Below are positions 7,700 through 64,000 of a DNA stretch of 64,000 bases, in pieces. The translations under genes were made by a program, and so were the position numbers. Source of the stretch: Thiogranum sp. (GTDB taxonomy: Bacteria > Pseudomonadota > Gammaproteobacteria > DSM-19610); assembly GCA_030148775.1 (NCBI GenBank), contig JASBST010000104.1, forward strand, positions 1 through 64,000, written 5' to 3'. A model generated the notes under the pieces. That model was given only the letters and a program-made list of their open reading frames with translations, made no database searches and had not been told where the DNA came from. Numbering within the stretch: position 1 is the first letter of the stretch; the number at the start of each line of letters is the position of its first letter.

Positions 7700-8205
7700 T
7701 GTGCGCTTGGAGAGGGATTATCTGCGCGGGCGTACTGACCTTCCTGGACATAGTGGTCCATTTCCAGCAATTTGGCGGGGTCCTGATAGCCGTATGCCTT
7801 GAGAATCTGTTTGCCATCGGGCTGCAGGAAGAAAAATACCGGCGTGCCCAAGGTGTTCATGCGTTCGCCGAGCTGCATTTCAGTGATTCGTTCGCCAGTG
7901 GGAAGGGTCAGTCGGTCCATGCTTTCGGAATTGACATACACCAGCACATAGTGCTGCGAATAGGCGGCTTTCACCTGCGGGTCGGCGAAGCCGACTTTAT
8001 TCGTCTTGTCGCAGTAGCCGCAGCCGTACCGACCAAAATACACGAAGATCGGACGCTGCTCCTTCTGCGCCAGCCGCAAACCGTCATCGTAGCGCACGAA
8101 TTGGTAGCCCGGCGGTGGCTCCGCATGGCTGACACCGAACGGCAGGCTCAGAGCCAGGCAGCAGGCCAAGGCAAGCCACAACTTAGGGGCGGCGCTGTTG
8201 TCCAT
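7696..8205 (-). CDS. exported thioredoxin-fold protein (SoxW-like)
   Basis: This 169-residue periplasmic protein has a signal peptide (ends near GVSHA) and a thioredoxin fold with active site YGCGYCDKTNK. The later LGTPVFFFLQPDGK carries the cis-Pro. The sequence resembles SoxW and related periplasmic reductases that keep partner cysteines reduced. It is the first gene of a two-gene operon with the propeller protein, overlapping it by four bases. The ATG at 8205 has a strong GGAGG five bases upstream and a promoter at 8230-8258. Confidence 0.85.
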   Translation of the reverse strand: MDNSAAPKLWLALACCLALSLPFGVSHAEPPPGYQFVRYDDGLRLAQKEQRPIFVYFGRYGCGYCDKTNKVGFADPQVKAAYSQHYVLVYVNSESMDRLTLPTGERITEMQLGERMNTLGTPVFFFLQPDGKQILKAYGYQDPAKLLEMDHYVQEGQYARADNPSPSAQ

Positions 8206-8229
8206 TCCATCCTCCGGAAGACATTTCTG

Positions 8230-8258
8230 ACTATCTGGCTACTTTATCAACCCGTAAA
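8230..8258 (-). promoter_or_regulatory. sigma70-type promoter of the thioredoxin/propeller operon
   Basis: On the reverse strand TTTACG (8258-8253) and GATAGT (8235-8230) are separated by 17 bases. This places the start point near 8223, about 18 bases before the start codon at 8205. Similarity to the sigma70 consensus is good but not perfect. Confidence 0.5.
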
Positions 8259-8383
8259 CCTTTTTTAAATAGTTAATTACCGTCGATGCATCATCCCGCG
8301 GGTGGTTATTTCCAGCGCCATACCCGTCTTTCGGCGCGGGGGCGGGGTAGCAGCCCTCACCGGCTTTGGCTGTCCGAGCCGTT

Positions 8384-9475
8384 TCAGGCGGCGAATTGCG
8401 CGATGCTTATCGGCAGGCGTCGCGCGCCCCAGACGCCGGGGGCCGGCTCGTACAGGCCGGGACAAGGCGCCAGACAGTGGCGACAACGGCCACGGGCGTC
8501 CAGCGACCAGTCGTTCAGTACATACCAGTCGCGACCGATCAGTTTTTTCCCGCACCGGTGGCACCAGGTGCTGGAGCCCAGCGGGTCGTGTACGTTGCCG
8601 GTGTAGACGTAGCGCAAGCCGTTGGCACGGGCGATGGCGCGCGCACGTTTTAAGGTGGCGGGCGGTGTAGGCGGCAGGTCGCGCATCTTCCAGTCGGGGT
8701 GGAAGGCGCTGAAATGCAGTGGCACATCGGCGCCAAGATGTTCGGCGATCCAACCCGTCAGCGACTCGATTTCCCGGGTTGAATCATTGTTGCCGGGTAT
8801 CAGCAGCGTGGTGATTTCCAGCCAGACCGCGGTCTCGTGCTTGAGATATTGCAGCGTGTCCAACACCGGGGCCAGCCGTGCCCCGGCGACTTTGCGGTAG
8901 AACGTCTCGCTGAAGGCTTTCAGATCGATGTTGGCGGCGTCCATGTGGCGATAGAATTCACGCCGTGGCTGCGCGCAGACGTAACCCGCGCTGACCGCCA
9001 CAGTCTTTACGCCGCGTTGGTGGCAGGCGACGGCCACGTCGATGGCGTACTCGTGAAAGATCACGGGATCGTTGTAGGTGAAGGCGATGCTGCGGCAGCC
9101 CAGCCGGTGCGCGGCTCGCGCTATTTGCTCGGGCGAGGCCATATCGGACAAGGTGGCGGTTTCCCGCGATTTGCTGATATCCCAGTTCTGACAGAATTTG
9201 CAGGCCAGATTGCAGCCGGCGGTACCGAATGACAGTACAGGGGTACCCGGCAGGAAATGATTCAGGGGTTTTTTTTCGATCGGGTCGACACAGAATCCGC
9301 TCGAGTGACCATAAGTGGTGAGCACCAGTTTCCCGCCCTGACGCCGGCGCACAAAACACAAGCCGCGTTGACCTGGGTGAAGCTTGCAGTAGCGTGGGCA
9401 GAGATCGCACTGCAGGCGACCGTCGTCAAGGCGGTGCCAATAGCCGGCGTCAACGACACTGTCGGCGTTTGTCAT
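8384..9475 (-). CDS. amrS: AmmeMemoRadiSam-system radical SAM enzyme
   Basis: This 363-residue radical SAM protein resembles PflA-like AmrS. The cluster motif is GCNLACKFCQNW, with Cys88, Cys92 and Cys95 (CxxxCxxC). An extra N-terminal cysteine group CDLCPRYC is typical of this family, and a C-terminal CHRCG...CRHCLAPC looks like an added zinc-ribbon. The reaction is unknown. The family's usual companions (Memo and AMMECR1 proteins) are not adjacent; the upstream neighbour is a DUF2934-like protein 17 bases away. The ATG at 9475 is chosen because upstream residues are not conserved, but no clear ribosome site is visible. Confidence 0.85.
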   Translation of the reverse strand: MTNADSVVDAGYWHRLDDGRLQCDLCPRYCKLHPGQRGLCFVRRRQGGKLVLTTYGHSSGFCVDPIEKKPLNHFLPGTPVLSFGTAGCNLACKFCQNWDISKSRETATLSDMASPEQIARAAHRLGCRSIAFTYNDPVIFHEYAIDVAVACHQRGVKTVAVSAGYVCAQPRREFYRHMDAANIDLKAFSETFYRKVAGARLAPVLDTLQYLKHETAVWLEITTLLIPGNNDSTREIESLTGWIAEHLGADVPLHFSAFHPDWKMRDLPPTPPATLKRARAIARANGLRYVYTGNVHDPLGSSTWCHRCGKKLIGRDWYVLNDWSLDARGRCRHCLAPCPGLYEPAPGVWGARRLPISIAQFAA

Positions 9476-9492
9476 TCGATGGCCGAGCGGGA

Positions 9493-9882
9493 CTAGGCTC
9501 GGTTTTCGGTAGCCGATTTGATGTCGCTGATCTCGGCGCTCTTGCCTGCGACCAGATCGGCGCGCTTCCAGCCGCCTAACAACAGGTGGTCGACTTCCAT
9601 TTCCGCCTCCAGCCAGTCCTGTTGCGGGTCCCCGCCGACGAATCCCCGCCGCTCGGCGCGCAGATAGGCGCACTGTTCGACCAGCCGGCGCCTGGCGTCG
9701 ACGTCGGTGATCGGCCCGGACCGGCGTGCCTCGGCGCTGTCGATTCTGGAGCGTAGTCTTTCGCTGGCCTTTTCCAGAGCGCTTTCCAGGCGTCGTTCGA
9801 AGCGGGTTTCCAATTTGGTCAACTGGTTGCGCAGACCTTCGAGTTCGTCCGCTAAAGCTTTGAGTGAGAGTTTTTCCGCCAT
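9493..9882 (-). CDS. coiled-coil protein with DUF2934-like C-terminal region
   Basis: This 129-residue soluble protein has an N-terminal half that is a charged heptad-rich coiled coil (about residues 5-55). Its second half contains RRLVEQCAYLRAERRGFVGG followed by DPQQDWLEAEMEVD, which fits the short DUF2934 pattern (AY...G...DW..AE). Function is unknown. The start has a strong GGGGAGG about ten bases upstream. It probably shares a transcript with amrS. It ends with TAG. Confidence 0.65.
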   Translation of the reverse strand: MAEKLSLKALADELEGLRNQLTKLETRFERRLESALEKASERLRSRIDSAEARRSGPITDVDARRRLVEQCAYLRAERRGFVGGDPQQDWLEAEMEVDHLLLGGWKRADLVAGKSAEISDIKSATENRA

Positions 9883-10168
9883 GAGTTTTATCCTCCCCGG
9901 ATAGTCACAGTGGCAGTTGTAGGCGTACTTTGGTGACGGTGGCGATCGTCAATATGCCGCCGCAATTGCGCCGGCATCGGGGGCGGTCGAGACCGTCGTC
10001 CATTGACTATAGTACCAACTGCACAGCCGTGCACAGTTCAAATCCCTTGCCCTGCCCCGGCTTCGGGCGGTTCCCTTATGCGTTCAAGTATAGTATTGAT
10101 AGTCGTACATAAGATCACACGATTGCCGCGGTCGCCCCTGGCTCCGACGGCCATGACCGGACGGGCTT
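9883..10168. other. divergent intergenic region, no gene seen
   Basis: This 286-base gap separates the DUF2934-like gene from the exported protein at 10169. A forward TTCAAG with TACATA 17 bases later (about 10083-10111) is a weak promoter candidate. GTTCAAATCC near 10036 resembles a tRNA T-loop but its flanks do not pair, so no tRNA is called. Confidence 0.4.
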
Positions 10169-11182
10169 TTGAGAACAGCTTTTTTACTGTTGGTATTTGT
10201 TGTGTGCCTGTTTGCAGCGGACTCGGTCACGCGAACGGCCCACGCCGCCGAAGCGCAAGCGCTGACGGCGGACCGGGTTCAGCGCCGGTTGTCGGAAAAC
10301 CTCAACAACGCCGCCCAATGGATCGACTCGTTTTTTGATGACGAGCGCTTCAGCGCCGAAGACGCCAGCAGCAAGCTGCGCCTTGGCCAGGGCGTGTTTC
10401 TCGAAGTCGGTGACAACCCCCGGCTCAAAACCCGCGTCAACCTGTCGCTGGACGTGCCGCGTACGGAGAAGAAACTGCGCGTCTTCGTTGGCGGTGAGGA
10501 CGACACCAATAAATCGGCCGGCGTTGTGCCCGATAGCGTCATTGACACTAACAGCGGCGGTTCGGCGGCCGGCCTGCAGTTTTTCGCCAAGGCCAATGAT
10601 CGCCAGAATCTCAGTTTTTCCACCGGCGTGAGAGTCTCCAACGCGGAATTGTTTGCCGGCCCGCGCTACCGCCACACCTTCCGCTATCACAATTGGCAGA
10701 CGCGTTTTACCCAGGAGGTGCGCTGGTATACCCGGCGCGGATGGGAATCGCGCACACGGATTGATTATGAGCGCCTCGCCGGGCAGGACCTGTTTTTCCG
10801 CCAGTCCGTCGACGGCCGCTGGCGGGAGGAGGATCCGGGCTACCAGTACGAATTCCGTACCAGCCTGATTCAGGCCTTGCGCCGGCGCAAGGCCATCGAG
10901 TATCAGTGGGCGAATCTGTTTCGCACCCATCCGCACCAGCGCCTCGAAAGCACGGTGGTGCGGGTCCGCTATCGGCAGAATTTCTGGCGTCGGTGGCTTT
11001 TTTACGAAATGAACCCTCAGGTGGCAATGCGCAACGATGAAGGTTTCAAGCCGAAACCGGGTATTGTGCTGCGTATCGAGGTGGTGTTGAGCGGGAAACG
11101 CTATTTGTCGTCACATGGGCAGGGATCAGGTCACGCCCTGGCCGACCGCGGCCCGAACGCCGACTACCCTAGCCTTCAGTGA
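10169..11182 (+). CDS. exported protein of unknown function, probable outer-membrane barrel
   Basis: This 337-residue protein begins with a signal peptide (MRTAFLLLVFVVCLFAADS, cleaved near TAHA). The mature part is rich in alternating hydrophobic and polar strands with aromatic residues (for example HTFRYHNWQTRFTQEVRWYT and RRWLFYEMNPQVAM), which suggests an outer-membrane beta-barrel. I do not recognise a named family. The start is TTG at 10169, supported by the signal peptide and by the lack of an in-frame ATG. Its last 14 bases overlap the convergent gene at 11169. Confidence 0.6.
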   Translation: MRTAFLLLVFVVCLFAADSVTRTAHAAEAQALTADRVQRRLSENLNNAAQWIDSFFDDERFSAEDASSKLRLGQGVFLEVGDNPRLKTRVNLSLDVPRTEKKLRVFVGGEDDTNKSAGVVPDSVIDTNSGGSAAGLQFFAKANDRQNLSFSTGVRVSNAELFAGPRYRHTFRYHNWQTRFTQEVRWYTRRGWESRTRIDYERLAGQDLFFRQSVDGRWREEDPGYQYEFRTSLIQALRRRKAIEYQWANLFRTHPHQRLESTVVRVRYRQNFWRRWLFYEMNPQVAMRNDEGFKPKPGIVLRIEVVLSGKRYLSSHGQGSGHALADRGPNADYPSLQ

Positions 11183-58621: not shown

Positions 58622-59671
58622 CTATTCCAGGTCCATGTCGAGCCAGCGTTCGGATTGGCAGTTTTCCAGCAACCTGGTTGCGTTAAGCCAGCGTTCGCTG
58701 CGGTGTAACGTCTCGGGGGTGGGGAATGTTTTCCCGTGCATGCGTGCCAGCCGCAGTTGCGCCGCCGGATCGGTGTAATCGGCGAGCGATTCGACGACCT
58801 CCACGGCCCGTTCGGGTTGATTGCACACCAGCACCATGTCGCAGCCGGCTTCCAGGGCGAGGCGGGCGCGTTGCGGATAGTCACCGGCCCACTCGGCGCC
58901 GCCCATGCTCAGATCGTCGCTGAAGATCGCACCCTGAAACCCCAGTGCCCGCCGCAGCACCTGTTGCAGCCAGACGCGGGAGAATCCGGCCGGTTGCGCG
59001 TCCACCAGCGGATAGAGCACGTGCGCGGCCATGACCGCGTTGAGTCCGTTACGTGCCAGGCGCTGGAAAGGAATCAGATCCTCCAGCTCCAAATCCACAT
59101 AACGCCGCGTGTCCTCGGGCAGACTGAGATGGGAGTCCACCGCCACACCGCCATGCCCGGGAAAATGTTTGCCCACAGTGGCCATCCCCGCTTCGTGCAT
59201 GCCGCGCTGGTAAGCCAGTGCCAGCTCGGTGACGACGGCTGGATCGCGATGGAACGCGCGATCGCCGATGACTTGGGAAATTCCCCGATCCAGGTCCAGG
59301 ACCGGCGCGAAGCTCAGATCCACGTTGACGGAAAGCACTTCGCTGGCCATCAGCCAACCCGCCTCGCGGGTCAGGGTCAGCGCGCGCTGCTTATCCTGCT
59401 GGTACAACTCGCCACAACGCCCCAGTGGCGGCAGGCGGAAGAAGCCGTCGCGCAGGCGCTGTACCCGTCCGCCTTCCTGGTCGACGGCGATCATCAACGG
59501 CTGCCGGCGTACCGCGTGGATATGCGTGCACAGCTCGCGTACCTGTTGCGGCGACTGGTAATTGCGGCTGAACAGGATAACGCCGCCGACCGCGGGGTGC
59601 TGCAACAGTTCGCGTTCTTCGGGCAACAACCCGGTACCGCGCAGATCGAGCATCACCGGCCCCATGCTCAT
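58622..59671 (-). CDS. nagZ: beta-N-acetylhexosaminidase NagZ
   Basis: This 349-residue family 3 glycosidase removes GlcNAc from muropeptides in peptidoglycan recycling and can feed beta-lactamase induction. Motifs: MGPVMLDLRG, VAVDQEGGRVQRLRDGF-like VDQEGGRVQRLRDG, KHFPGHGGVAVDSH (flexible-loop Asp-His pair) and IFSDDLSMGGA (catalytic Asp). The ATG at 59671 overlaps the stop of the ABC permease gene by ATGA, so it is made together with a peptide-type transporter. It ends with TAG. Confidence 0.94.
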   Translation of the reverse strand: MSMGPVMLDLRGTGLLPEERELLQHPAVGGVILFSRNYQSPQQVRELCTHIHAVRRQPLMIAVDQEGGRVQRLRDGFFRLPPLGRCGELYQQDKQRALTLTREAGWLMASEVLSVNVDLSFAPVLDLDRGISQVIGDRAFHRDPAVVTELALAYQRGMHEAGMATVGKHFPGHGGVAVDSHLSLPEDTRRYVDLELEDLIPFQRLARNGLNAVMAAHVLYPLVDAQPAGFSRVWLQQVLRRALGFQGAIFSDDLSMGGAEWAGDYPQRARLALEAGCDMVLVCNQPERAVEVVESLADYTDPAAQLRLARMHGKTFPTPETLHRSERWLNATRLLENCQSERWLDMDLE

Positions 59672-60468
59672 GCCGCGCTCCCGCGTACATCGAGCCGGTC
59701 GCGCAACCGGTCGCCGAGCAAATTGATGCTCAATACAACCAGAAACAGGGCCGCGCCTGGCGTCAATACCAGATGTGGCGCCACCAGCAGATAACGCACG
59801 CCGTCGCGAATCATGCTGCCCCAGGAGGCCGCGGGGGGTTGCACGCCAAGACCGAGAAAGGACAGCCCCGCCTCGGCGACAATCACCGCCGCGACGGCGA
59901 AGGTGGCCTCCACTACCAACGGCGCGGCGATCAGAGGTAACAGATGTCGCCGCAGAATATAGTGCCGGGGCGAACCCAGGGCGACGGCCGCCAGCACATG
60001 ATCGCGGTGTTTGACCGACAGTACCTGGGCCCGCGTCAGCCGGGCGAAACCGACCCAGCCCACCAGGCTGAGGGCGATCACCAGATTGCCGATGCCCGGT
60101 CCGAGCAGGCCGGCCAGGGCGATCGCTAGCAGGATTCCGGGAAAGGCCATGAAGATATCCAGCAGCAGCACCAGTGCCCGGTCCCAATGGCCGCCGAGGT
60201 AGGCGCCCAGACCGCCGAGCAGGGTGCCGACGACCAGAGACAGGCTGACCACGCTCGCGGCCACCCAGCAGGAAGTCCGTGCGCCGATCAGCAGCCGGTC
60301 GAGGAGCGGCCGGCCGAGATCATCGTAGCCGAGCCAGGCATTGCCGTCGGGGCCGTGCAGAATGGAGACCAGCGCCATACGCTCGGGGTGCAAGGGAAGA
60401 TAGGGCGCCAGCAGGGCCAGCGTCACCCAGCCACCGAGCAGCACAGCGGTCAGAAGCGGCGTTTTCAC
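59668..60468 (-). CDS. peptide-type ABC transporter permease, DppC/OppC family
   Basis: This 266-residue inner-membrane permease has about six membrane segments. The conserved ATPase-contact loop is VALGSPRHYILRRHLLPLI (EAA-like), and LSFLGLGVQPPAASWGSMI matches the DppC family. It starts with GTG 60468 overlapping the stop of the DppB-type gene. It ends four bases into nagZ. With nagZ and an L,D-transpeptidase nearby, a role in importing cell-wall peptides is likely but inferred. Confidence 0.9.
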   Translation of the reverse strand: MKTPLLTAVLLGGWVTLALLAPYLPLHPERMALVSILHGPDGNAWLGYDDLGRPLLDRLLIGARTSCWVAASVVSLSLVVGTLLGGLGAYLGGHWDRALVLLLDIFMAFPGILLAIALAGLLGPGIGNLVIALSLVGWVGFARLTRAQVLSVKHRDHVLAAVALGSPRHYILRRHLLPLIAAPLVVEATFAVAAVIVAEAGLSFLGLGVQPPAASWGSMIRDGVRYLLVAPHLVLTPGAALFLVVLSINLLGDRLRDRLDVRGSAA

Positions 60469-61391
60469 CGGGCCCCCAGACGAATACGTGGATCGATACG
60501 CGCGTACAGCAGGTCCGTGAGCAGATTGACCAACACGTACGACAGGCTGATCAGCAATACCGCGCCCTGTACCACCGGATAGTCGCGCCGTTGGATGGAC
60601 TCGATCAGCAAAGTGCCCAGGCCCGGCCAGTTGAAGACGTTCTCGGTGACCACCGCCCCGCCCAACAAGGTGCCGAGCTGCATGCCGAGCACCGTCAGTA
60701 CCGGCAGCCAGGCATTGCGCAGACCGTGGCCGATCCATACGCGGTAAGGCGACAGTCCCTTGGCTTTCGCGGTACGGATAAAGTCCTCGCTCATGACCTC
60801 GAGCAGGCTACTGCGAATCATGCGCGACAGGATCGCCGCCAAGGCGGTTCCCAGTGTCACGGCCGGTAATACCAGCGAGGCCAAACCGTCACGGCCGCTG
60901 ACCGGAAACCAGCCGAGCCATAATGAAAACATCAGCACCAGCAAGGGCCCTAGCCAGAAGTTGGGAATGGATACGCCCAGCAGCGCAAAGCCACTGCTGA
61001 ACGTATCCCAGGCGCTGCCGCGCCGCGCAGCCGCCAGCAGTCCCAACGGAATGGCGAGCAGCAGCGCGATACCCAGCGCGGCGACGGCAAGTTCCACCGT
61101 GGCGCCAAGTCGCGGCAGCAACAGCTCAGTGACCGCGGTCTGGCTGTACAGTGACCGGCCCAGATCGCCTTTGAACAGACCCGCGATAAAGTGGAGCCAC
61201 TGCAGCCACAGGGGCTGGTCCAGACCCAGGGCGTGGCGCATGGCTTGGCGGTCGGCGCCGTTGCCCGACTCGCCGAGCATGACCTCAACGGGATCGCCCG
61301 GCACCCAGTGGATGAGGCCGAAAACCAACGTGGCCACACCGAGAGAAACCCATACCGCACTGAAAAGACGCGCTAATAAATAGGCGGGCAT
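60465..61391 (-). CDS. peptide-type ABC transporter permease, DppB/OppB family
   Basis: This 308-residue inner-membrane permease opens with the family N-terminus RLFSAVWVSLGVATLVFGLI and HWVPGDPVEVMLG. The cytoplasmic loop is IRTAKAKGLSPYRVWIGHGLRNA (EAA-type). VTENVFNWPGLGTLLIESI marks the later segments. It forms the channel with the DppC-type protein. No ATPase gene lies between here and the binding protein at 63102, so ATPases must be upstream of the window or elsewhere. Confidence 0.92.
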   Translation of the reverse strand: MPAYLLARLFSAVWVSLGVATLVFGLIHWVPGDPVEVMLGESGNGADRQAMRHALGLDQPLWLQWLHFIAGLFKGDLGRSLYSQTAVTELLLPRLGATVELAVAALGIALLLAIPLGLLAAARRGSAWDTFSSGFALLGVSIPNFWLGPLLVLMFSLWLGWFPVSGRDGLASLVLPAVTLGTALAAILSRMIRSSLLEVMSEDFIRTAKAKGLSPYRVWIGHGLRNAWLPVLTVLGMQLGTLLGGAVVTENVFNWPGLGTLLIESIQRRDYPVVQGAVLLISLSYVLVNLLTDLLYARIDPRIRLGAR

Positions 61392-61397
61392 CGGCGC

Positions 61398-62528
61398 TCA
61401 GGAACGGAACGACTGTGGTTCGGGTTCTTCCAGATCGTCATCGATACTTTGGTAGGCGAAACGCAATTCGTCGCCTTGTTCGCGTCGCAGGCTGAAAACG
61501 GGGAACGTCTCGCCGGCCACGGTGACCGAGCGGCTCGTATCGGCCATTTCGGCGATGCAGGCGATATCGCAACGCAGTGCCGCGGCGCTGGCCGGCGCGC
61601 TCGGGTTTAGGCGCAGAGGGGGTTCCTCGCGGCCCGAATCGTCGCCGCGCAGCCGGCCCACTTCCGCGATCAGGTCATCGACCTGTAACGCCAGTTGGTC
61701 CAGATGTGCGTGCAGATCCCGCTGGGGCGGGCGGACGCAGAATTCCGCTGTCATGGTCACCGTCTCCTCCGCGGGATCGGTGATGACGCCGGCGGCGACC
61801 AGAAAACGCCGAGTGAAAACGTCCATCCCCTGCTGTGGTGTTGGCGTATCTTCGCGCAGATGGCGCTCGATTTGCGTCAGCCCGCTGGCGTAGCCGCCGC
61901 CACCGGCCGCTGCGGGCGGTTCCAGTGTGCCGAGCAATGGCAACGGCATGTCCAGATAAAACCCGGCGAGGCTGCGCAGTTTCTCGTGCGTGTGGCGTCC
62001 GCTCTGGGCGTTGTCGCACCGGGTGACGACAACGCTGGTATGGCCGGCGAACTGTTCTGCGTACAGCAGTTTGAGCAGTCCGTAGGCGGCTGCCAGGGAT
62101 TCGGGCGTCGGCGTTAGCGTCAGCAGCAACTCCGGGCTGGCCAGCAACAACGCCAAGCGGTTCTGATCCGTGCCGCTACCGGCGTCGACGAAGAGAAAAT
62201 CGTAGTCGGTCAGTCGCTGCAGACGTTCGCTGAATCGTTGCAGCTGTTCAGCATCGAGAGTATTCAGCCAACGGGCTTCACGGCAACCGACTACCAGGTC
62301 GCATCCCGGTGCCAGCTGCAACAACGAAAACCGACCGTGACCGGTCAGACTGTCGGCCAGTGTGGTGACATCCGGCCAGCGCTTTGAACCATCGCCGCGC
62401 TGGGTGGCGCCGGCGAGTGTCAGCAGGCAGACGCGCGCTCCGGAGGCGGCCGTGCGGCCGGCCAGATCGATGGCCAGACGCCGCTCTTCCTGCGTGTTGT
62501 CGCCGGTCAGTGTGATGATTCTTGTCAT
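61398..62528 (-). CDS. MinD/FlhG-like protein without a Walker A motif
   Basis: This 376-residue protein has a first half (1-200) that follows FlhG/FleN and MinD. DYDFLFVDAGSGTDQNRLAL corresponds to the switch region, ASPELLLTLTPTPESLAAAYG follows, then SVVVTRCDNAQSG. The expected KGGVGKT loop is replaced by LTGDNTQEERRLAIDLA, so ATP binding of the usual kind is doubtful. The second half (200-376) is unlike MinD and unrecognised. It lies six bases upstream of the DppB-type gene and downstream of an L,D-transpeptidase, so it is probably part of this operon. Confidence 0.75.
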   Translation of the reverse strand: MTRIITLTGDNTQEERRLAIDLAGRTAASGARVCLLTLAGATQRGDGSKRWPDVTTLADSLTGHGRFSLLQLAPGCDLVVGCREARWLNTLDAEQLQRFSERLQRLTDYDFLFVDAGSGTDQNRLALLLASPELLLTLTPTPESLAAAYGLLKLLYAEQFAGHTSVVVTRCDNAQSGRHTHEKLRSLAGFYLDMPLPLLGTLEPPAAAGGGGYASGLTQIERHLREDTPTPQQGMDVFTRRFLVAAGVITDPAEETVTMTAEFCVRPPQRDLHAHLDQLALQVDDLIAEVGRLRGDDSGREEPPLRLNPSAPASAAALRCDIACIAEMADTSRSVTVAGETFPVFSLRREQGDELRFAYQSIDDDLEEPEPQSFRS

Positions 62529-62605
62529 GCTGATAAAGTCTGAGCGCGGCTTTCACGGGCCTTGGATGCTGGCATGCCGGCATGATACCACATCGGCTCC
62601 GGGGT

Positions 62606-63097
62606 TTAGCCCCCCTCCTCGATCAGCACCGGCATGCCGACGGTTACCCGGTCGAAAAGCTCAATGATATCCGCGTTGCGCATGCGCACGCAGCCGTGGG
62701 AGCGCGCCACCCCCATCGGCTCGCTGTCAGGGCAGCCATGGATGTAGATGTAGCGACGCATGCTGTCGACCCGTCCCAGGCGATTTTTGCCCGGCTCGTC
62801 GCCACATAACCAGAGGATTCGACTGAGAATCCAGTCACGCTGCGGATGCGCCCGGGCGAGCGATTCACTATAGACTTCGCCCGTGGGCCGGCGCGCGACA
62901 AATACCGTGCCGGCGGCGCAGCCTGCACCGATTCTGGCGCGCACCCGGTGCCAGCCACGCGGCGTCTGTTCACTACCGTAGCCTTCCCCGGCCCCTTCGA
63001 GCGCGGTCGAAACCGGATATTCCGCCCGCACCCGGCCGCCCTGGCGCAGTTGCAGGCGTTGCCGGCCGAGGTCGATATGAAGATAATCCCGTTGCAT
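62606..63097 (-). CDS. L,D-transpeptidase (YkuD) domain protein
   Basis: This 163-residue YkuD-fold enzyme has the full active site IYIHGCPDSEPMG then ARSHGCVRMRN, with catalytic Cys136. These enzymes form 3-3 or lipoprotein cross-links in peptidoglycan, or cut them. No signal peptide is seen, so this protein may act in the cytoplasm on recycled peptides or leave by another route. It starts four bases after the binding protein gene and is followed 77 bases later by the MinD-like gene. Confidence 0.9.
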   Translation of the reverse strand: MQRDYLHIDLGRQRLQLRQGGRVRAEYPVSTALEGAGEGYGSEQTPRGWHRVRARIGAGCAAGTVFVARRPTGEVYSESLARAHPQRDWILSRILWLCGDEPGKNRLGRVDSMRRYIYIHGCPDSEPMGVARSHGCVRMRNADIIELFDRVTVGMPVLIEEGG

Positions 63098-63101
63098 AGC
63101 T

Positions 63102-64000
63102 CTACTTTACCCGTTGTATCTCTCTCAGCCCATCATAAGAGCCATTCGCGGCCACCTGATAGCCGCGGACCCGGGCGCTGGAGGCGGCATACTGATCTTC
63201 ATGCCAGAGCGGGACATAGGGCAGGCGTTCGAGCAGCCGCCGCTGCAGGCGCCGGTACAAATCGGCTTGCCGGGCAGAAGTTGGTGCTGCGCGCGCCTGG
63301 TCGATCAGCGCGTCGCTGAGCGTATCGGTGTAGCGCCCGCGATTGGCGCCGGCCGGCGGCACTGAATGGCTGTGAAACGCATAGCGAAAAATATCCGGCG
63401 ACTCGATCCCCACCCAGGCCAGGCCGTAGAGCTGGAAGCGCCCCGCTTTGATGTCGCCGAACAAGGTGCCCCAATCGTAGCTTTGTATTCGCAGGTCGAC
63501 ACCGATGCGCGCCAGCTGCTGCTGCAGTATGGTGGCGATGCGCAGCCGCAGCGGGTCGCTGGAGGTTTTGTAGCTCAACTGCAAGCGGTTGTCGGCACCG
63601 TACCCGGCTCGAGCCAGTAGCGCTCTGGCGCGTTCCGGGTCCGGTTCGATGACCGCTAACCTGGGGTTGCCGGCCCAGTGCTCCGGCGGCAGCAACGCCG
63701 ACGCCTGGCGCGCGGCGCCATGGAACAGGTGGCGAACGATCGCCCGGCGATCGATGCCGAGCGCGATGGCCCGGCGTACTTCGGGCCGCGCGCAGACCGG
63801 ATCCTGCAGTTGAAACCCGACGTAGGCAAACGTATTGCCGGCGACACGCTGTACCTCGATTTCGGAGCGCTGTTGCAGATAGGCCAGAAGTTCCGGTGGC
63901 AGATCGCCCTGCAACAGATCGATCTCACCGCGCAGCAGTTTCAGTACCCGCATGGTCGGGTCGTTGACCTGCTCGAAACTCACCCGCTGGCGGTCGCTGT
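63102..64000 (-). CDS. peptide-type ABC transporter substrate-binding protein (partial)
   Basis: This is the C-terminal 298 residues of a family 5 extracellular solute-binding protein; the N-terminus lies beyond the window edge. Characteristic segments are LRGEIDLLQGDLPPELLAYL, VRRAIALGIDRRAIV, DPERARALLARAGY and LFGDIKAGRFQLYGLAWVG (usual motif F-D-x-x-L-x-GW). The closing block is LPYVPLWHEDQYAA. It probably delivers peptides, perhaps murein peptides, to the DppB/DppC-type permeases downstream. It ends with TAG four bases before the L,D-transpeptidase start. Confidence 0.92.
   Translation of the reverse strand, partial: SDRQRVSFEQVNDPTMRVLKLLRGEIDLLQGDLPPELLAYLQQRSEIEVQRVAGNTFAYVGFQLQDPVCARPEVRRAIALGIDRRAIVRHLFHGAARQASALLPPEHWAGNPRLAVIEPDPERARALLARAGYGADNRLQLSYKTSSDPLRLRIATILQQQLARIGVDLRIQSYDWGTLFGDIKAGRFQLYGLAWVGIESPDIFRYAFHSHSVPPAGANRGRYTDTLSDALIDQARAAPTSARQADLYRRLQRRLLERLPYVPLWHEDQYAASSARVRGYQVAANGSYDGLREIQRVK

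Follow-up and report, generated by a model that had tools for sequence, protein, structure and literature searches.

Gene organization of the locus

The window, a stretch of 64,000 nucleotides from a Thiogranum genome (G000 in this analysis), carries on its minus strand a run of genes in which a family 5 solute-binding protein (SBP) and an ElsL-type YkuD protein precede a 376-residue protein, followed by two permeases (permB and permC) and the β-N-acetylhexosaminidase NagZ (Table 1). The 376-residue protein is called MLP, a name coined here for FlhG/MinD-like protein without a P-loop. Its gene starts with ATG at 62528 and stops with TGA; the N-terminal residues are MTRIITLTGDNTQEERRLAIDLAGR, and an upstream extension could add no more than 8 residues (open frame, 384 aa).

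The initial annotation had described these neighbours as an L,D-transpeptidase, peptide permeases and nagZ. The permeases and nagZ hold, but the "L,D-transpeptidase" is a YkuD protein that is better matched by ElsL, an L,D-carboxypeptidase of cell-wall recycling: its score with the NCBIfam ElsL model (190.9 bits) is under the cut-off of 270, and it beats that of every L,D-transpeptidase model. ElsL orthologues are reported to occur across Gamma- and Betaproteobacteria (PMC8649774); MinD as a word is absent from the main text of that study in the part available. Likewise, within the accessible portions of the literature searched, there is no report of a MinD-like protein among cell-wall recycling genes.

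Table 1. Positions of the genes and protein features discussed (window coordinates unless a locus is named)
Feature	Position	Strand	Evidence or remark
SBP, family 5	63102..63998	-	Pfam SBP_bac_5; cut by window end; complete in L126, 494 aa
ElsL-type YkuD L,D-carboxypeptidase	62606..63097	-	Pfam YkuD 8.5e-24; NCBIfam ElsL 1.3e-56
MLP, FlhG/MinD-like protein without P-loop	61398..62528	-	376 aa; ORF, FlhG/FleN homology, fold
MinD/FlhG-fold domain, residues 1-245	61794..62528	-	AlphaFold2 model, alignment to 4rz2 (model residues 1-250)
Former deviant Walker A loop, residues 9-17, GDNTQEERR	62478..62504	-	alignment with own FlhG and orthologues
D115, Walker B/switch II aspartate	62184..62186	-	motif table, 16/16 family copies
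Helix aligned with C-terminal helix of own FlhG, residues 235-246	61791..61826	-	alignment, hydrophobic moment; possible membrane helix
Leucine zipper, L272, L279, L286, L293 with L276, V283, V290	61650..61715	-	heptad leucines, shuffle test
Small beta tail, residues 331-358	61455..61538	-	model; R356, F357, A358 invariant in 8/8 alignment rows
permB, DppB/Opp2B-type permease	60465..61391	-	Pfam, NCBIfam; 6 bases 3' of MLP
permC, DppC-type permease	59668..60488	-	Pfam BPD_transp_1; start by homology
NagZ β-N-acetylhexosaminidase	58622..59647	-	NCBIfam PRK05337, 468.5 bits, above cut-off 207; start by homology
Phosphoribosyltransferase-like, then MTAP-like protein	downstream of NagZ		named by reading of sequence
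GGDEF-EAL genes at G018, G019 and G006 loci	L044:10439-12352; L045:397-2406; L039:2616-5264 and 8196-11117		domain search

Homology and fold

In a phmmer search against PDB chains, MLP is matched by FlhG (4rz3, E 2.6e-13, residues 80-203) and by FleN (E 2e-9, residues 4-202). An AlphaFold2 model built from eight orthologues (mean pLDDT 74) has FlhG 4rz2 as its best structural match (Foldseek E 5.4e-16; Z 26.6, rmsd 2.5 over 235 residues), followed by FleN entries (Z 22.1-24.4) and MinD 1hyq (Z 20.7). Together with the loop GDNTQEERR, these matches bear out the initial view of a MinD/FlhG homologue without a P-loop. With respect to the ParA/MinD (SIMIBI) group, the MinD-type fold and the Walker B/switch II aspartate (D115) are present, and the deviant Walker A motif KGGxxGK[ST] and the switch I aspartate are absent. 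No Pfam model matched MLP at E 1 or better. A defence protein was rejected on a PADLOC search without a match for the window protein, and MinD of the Min system (MinCDE) was rejected because the NCBIfam bacterial MinD model, TIGR01968, gives 12.9 bits, far under its cut-off of 212.9. No MinD over this cut-off was found in any of the five family genomes searched (G000, G003, G005, G009 and G018), and the Min system may be absent from genomes of the family.

MLP is the second, divergent member of its kind in the window genome, where a canonical flhG lies between flhF and fliA and the MLP gene does not. A single-sequence scan of the genome_contigs collection found no relative. The N-terminal DQAxxLR motif of FlhG has a role in activating FlhF; it is visible in the FlhG of the same genome, whereas MLP begins at the first strand and lacks it. 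Thus FlhG and FleN resemble MLP in fold and sequence, and the C-terminal helix of FlhG can be aligned with a helix of MLP, while they differ in having the P-loop, switch I, the N-terminal DQAxxLR extension and a flagellar operon, and MLP adds a zipper and a tail.

Distribution of the gene

Gene order was compared in one family of sulfur bacteria, the Thiogranum family, with 20 genomes. An FlhG-like gene is found at the ElsL locus in 16 of them (G000, G001, G003-G007, G009-G012 and G015-G019), and in 11 of these 16 it lies directly between ElsL and permB on a single contig. The G001 copy is split over two contig ends, and that of G004 follows ElsL and then runs into a 100-base assembly gap. In G018 and G019 the gene is just before permB, separated from ElsL by a GGDEF-EAL gene on the opposite strand, and in G006 it lies between ElsL and NagZ, the permeases being missing from the locus. 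On the other hand, the ElsL-permB junction is closed with no gene between in G002, G014 and G008; the one genome left without a placement, G013, has no ElsL in its assembly. These closed junctions indicate that the gene is dispensable at the locus. It has probably been lost twice within the genus, in G014 and in G002 with G008, a count made uncertain by weak branch support near G014 and near the G002-G008 pair (0.773 and 0.646).

In the class sample, ElsL is matched at E 1e-20 in 175 of 229 genomes, the own family included, with none over the curated cut-off. Among 30 ElsL loci outside the family no FlhG-like gene was found, and permB was within the stretch in 11. Seven larger outside neighbourhoods, chosen for permB, have ElsL-permB-permC without an FlhG-like gene, with NagZ next in five. 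SBP-ElsL-DppB-DppC without MLP is thus a common gammaproteobacterial gene order, and the absence of the FlhG-like gene from the outside loci is most simply explained by its insertion into this older order.

The position beside permB raises the question whether MLP is a regulatory subunit of the SBP-DppB-DppC peptide importer, whose operon encodes no ABC ATPase. The spacing between MLP and permB is exactly 6 bases in 8 of the 14 genomes having both genes, and a motif scan found no frame with Walker A and an LSGGQ-type signature in the seven outside importer neighbourhoods (L128-L134) or in 12 family loci, which include the window (58622-63998) and G006, the latter without permeases. However, the importer genes occur without MLP outside the family, and G006 keeps the gene with neither permB nor permC at the locus, the best permB match elsewhere in this 79% complete genome being 35% identical. 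A role as importer subunit is accordingly considered quite improbable. The sole oligo_HPY locus of the window genome adjoins other, Yej-like permeases.

Erosion of the ATP site

In the window copy both lysines and the T/S of the former Walker A loop are gone, and switch I reads TLAGATQRGD in MLP versus DADLGLANVD in the FlhG of the same genome. Switch motifs had initially been called clear, which is true of D115 but not of switch I. A sequencing or assembly error behind the loss of the P-loop was rejected, since the same state is seen in three genomes (G000, G003 and G005).

A motif table was made of the 16 family copies, with G004 and G001 (its N-terminal piece for D115) included as far as their sequence goes. 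The canonical SGKGGVGKTS is present in four copies (G009, G011, G018 and G019). The signature lysine is replaced in ten (G000, G001, G003, G004, G005, G006, G007, G012, G016 and G017), and the catalytic lysine in four, namely G000, G003, G005 and, separately, G004, which has GVGTSS. In G001, sister to the P-loop-less clade, GVGKTS persists and switch I is already lost, and the whole loop together with switch I is lost in the three genomes of the window's clade. A FastTree phylogeny of concatenated neighbour genes, 11 at most, has the branching order (G001,(G003,(G000,G005))) with every node supported at 1.0, and the tree of the protein itself repeats this order (0.959, 0.997 and 0.997). The G017 copy (L046:3063-4016; 317 aa in all) has a large internal deletion across switch I and the region after it.

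Intact P-loops in flagellar-operon homologues had been named beforehand as a sign of mere decay. What is found is different: the flagellar flhG in the window genome falls into a separate clade, and the intact P-loops of G009, G011, G018 and G019 stand at the recycling locus itself, which means that an ATPase was present there first and gave rise to the P-loop-less state.

Degenerate Walker A motifs have precedents in the superfamily. TadZ is part of a pilus system. In Eubacterium rectale it is, like MLP, a ParA/MinD-family protein without either P-loop lysine; it is reported to keep ATPase activity by means of another lysine, the likeness being drawn from its description only, in the part of that report available (PMC10482377). 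Motif loss by itself is hence no proof of an ATP-free protein. BcsQ of cellulose secretion has RGGVGTT, similar to the GVGTSS of G004, and McdA has SGGQGKT, according to Table 1 of a partly accessible source (PMC9178275). The P-loop-intact copies of G009 and G019 exceed the Pfam CBP_BcsQ cut-off (48.5 and 41.9 versus 21.3 bits), as they do for several other ParA-type families, and stay under the NCBIfam BcsQ cut-off (75.8 and 65.2 versus 157.85); the window protein is matched by no BcsQ model of Pfam or NCBIfam.

With these precedents, MLP might still bind nucleotide through a remodelled loop, in the manner of E. rectale TadZ, with an arginine pair or another basic residue in place of lysine. 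In each of the three P-loop-less copies the old loop ends in Arg-Arg, and D115 has been retained. However, the loss goes beyond the lysines to the whole GxxxxGK[ST] frame and to switch I, the window copy is missing one more residue, and lysines 49, 153 and 183 are all that remain in the protein. Nucleotide binding of this kind is judged improbable, and judging from its motifs MLP presumably does not bind ATP.

Selection on the gene

The dN/dS of the gene was compared with that of its neighbours in seven pairs of genomes; dS approaches or exceeds 1 in several of them, values above 1 being saturated. The three P-loop-less pairs give 0.24, 0.27 and 0.36 (bootstrap 0.20-0.32, 0.20-0.37 and 0.28-0.46), about twice the neighbour mean. 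The two P-loop-intact pairs give 0.13 (about 2x the neighbours) and 0.23 (about 4x), and two pairs with altered loops give 0.42 and 0.27, while the neighbour genes in the same pairs range from 0.05 to 0.29. The excess is therefore about twofold or more in all seven pairs. It is found in intact pairs as well and is no larger where the loop has gone, so that the loss brought no visible relaxation of constraint. When neutral change was simulated, 0 of 1000 replicates were free of stops at a distance of 0.74 and 2 of 1000 at 0.37. From dN/dS and the simulation together it follows that MLP is kept by selection, which is weaker than that on its neighbours.

These data bear on the explanation that MLP is an accessory ATPase in decay and about to be lost: the operon would work without it, constraint on the ATP site would have gone, and the present conservation would be a residue of recent function. 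The rate excess, the probable two losses in the genus, the loss of motifs in several lineages and the internal deletion in G017 are all in line with such decay. On the other side, the frame is intact at the dN/dS values given for the three P-loop-less genomes, neutral evolution would have put stops into nearly every replicate, the zipper and tail described below are conserved in the P-loop-less copies, and the rate excess is not confined to copies without the loop. Decay is regarded as unlikely, though it keeps a real share of the probability.

The C-terminal part

A novel C-terminal part of 170 residues had been proposed; the MinD fold reaches to about residue 245, so that about 130 residues remain, in which the model shows a zipper helix, then a linker of low confidence and a small beta tail. 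At the end of the fold is the helix that aligns with the C-terminal helix of FlhG; its hydrophobic moment is 0.39 in MLP, 0.48 in the own FlhG and 0.33-0.75 in 14 copies, as raw values without a shuffle control, and MLP may contact the membrane through it.

The heptad leucines of the zipper fall in a predicted helix (272-296). Of the 14 complete copies, 12 have a leucine at every one of the four d positions, the exceptions being G018 and G019 with V, L, V and I; this test and alignment A1 omit the split copy of G001 and that of G004 at the assembly gap. In the 12 copies with four leucines, 2000 shuffles of the C-terminal part reach the zipper score no more than 11 times per copy, as compared with 1431 of 2000 in G018 and 1358 of 2000 in G019; the register was picked after the invariant columns had been viewed, and the shuffles scan every place in the C-terminal part. 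The zipper is already present in the P-loop-intact copies of G009 and G011. It could substitute for ATP-driven dimerisation, and MLP would then be a dimer.

Folded alone, the C-terminal part reaches a mean pLDDT of 67 and a pTM of 0.29, and its best PDB match has E 0.44, with none at E 0.001. A profile of this part matches 11 of the 369 genomes of the class sample, strongly in three (G000, G009 and G016); the other eight matches are short (E 4e-4 to 1e-3) and are taken as chance coils. The profile understates the spread, since G018 of the same family is missed. Its seven named records comprise three of Thiogranum, two of Thiohalobacter and two labelled only Gammaproteobacteria, all from metagenome assemblies.

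Origin of the paralogue

In the gene tree, which left out G001C, G004, G027a and G027c, 17 FlhG-labelled sequences form with G134 a clade (0.996) that excludes the locus copies of the family; six of the 17 have flagellar neighbours in view, the rest being labelled by similarity. A recent copy of the own flhG was rejected as the source, since this flhG falls in the separate clade and the G018 and G019 copies reach only 44% over 237 residues. There are orphan FlhG-like paralogues in other gammaproteobacteria. One of them, in G101 of another family (locus L165), is a full-length relative, 41% identical to the G019 copy over residues 3-414 and with a coil and tail that appear similar by eye; unlike MLP it has an intact P-loop, and no recycling-operon gene was recognised in the 18 kb around it. 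Because the family copies stand outside the FlhG clade, the ancestor was probably such an orphan paralogue rather than flhG itself.

A single insertion into the locus is preferred, as the G018 and G019 copies are both just before permB, although this is not proven and two insertions are conceivable. The basal genomes G018 and G019 lack a strict zipper and do not have the gene beside ElsL, and in the gene tree a split (0.97) separates their copies from those of the rest of the family, on whose side G101 and G140 also fall.

In G018 and G019 the FlhG-like gene has a GGDEF-EAL gene next to it, in G006 such genes stand on either side of the ElsL-MLP-NagZ block, and the orphan FlhG-like proteins of G117, G155 and G169, of other families, are near GGDEF-EAL proteins as well. 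These neighbours are possibly a trace of the past of the FlhG-like gene. They could also indicate a c-di-GMP-related role of MLP, but among the frames labelled, neither the window nor the remaining family loci have a GGDEF-EAL gene beside it, the proximity is a raw observation without a chance control, and genomes of this kind often carry many GGDEF-EAL genes. Such a role is very improbable.

Among the orphans, one clade of five (0.995) has four members (L173, L174, L175 and L168; the fifth is G033) beside signalling genes, HDOD histidine kinases in three and REC-GGDEF-EAL proteins in three, which suggests a signalling module. The orphan FlhG-like protein of G112 (L167:2499-4052) carries a C-terminal HATPase_c domain (E 4.7e-5, 24.2 bits), just below the Pfam cut-off of 26.4.

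A proposed scaffold without an ATP switch

ParA/MinD positioning ATPases are thought to work by switching between ATP and ADP states. The best reading of the present data, held tentatively and at somewhat less than even confidence, is that a captured FlhG-like paralogue has turned into an ATP-independent, zipper-dimerised scaffold in a recycling locus. The paralogue would have been a normal P-loop ATPase, extended at its C-terminus, when the ancestor of the Thiogranum family gained it at the SBP-ElsL-DppB-DppC-NagZ locus. Its ATP switch would then have been eroded repeatedly in the genus, with the signature lysine and switch I going in several lineages and finally the entire P-loop in the window's clade. 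This loss would have been permitted since the leucine zipper, and not an ATP sandwich, would hold the dimer. MLP, perhaps placed on the inner membrane by the FlhG-type helix, would scaffold or regulate its operon partners. ElsL and NagZ appear better candidates for these than the importer, because ElsL, MLP and NagZ are still adjacent in G006, where the permeases are missing from the locus (with the completeness given above). The recycling role and the partners are suggested by gene order.

The non-hydrolysing subunit for cell-wall recycling that the initial annotation had imagined is favoured insofar as purifying selection has kept MLP at a recycling locus despite the loss of the P-loop and switch I; it is weakened by a rate about twice that of the neighbours and by the probable two losses, and its tie to recycling is one of gene order. 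A fuller version is rather doubtful, namely that within one genus an ATP switch was replaced by an ATP-free scaffold, the zipper of the captured FlhG-like ATPase having made ATP-sandwich dimerisation dispensable and the end product organising ElsL and NagZ at the membrane.

Collectively, MLP is a candidate for a conserved, operon-embedded pseudo-ATPase. The strongest part is the evolutionary series, whose intermediates are found in living genomes: canonical motif, signature lysine lost, switch I lost, catalytic lysine lost and whole loop lost. Selection keeps MLP without its ATP site, and orthologues in which the site is intact or half-eroded stand at one and the same locus, a natural series on what this fold does minus its switch. 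MLP also brings a MinD-like protein into the company of genes for cell-wall recycling.
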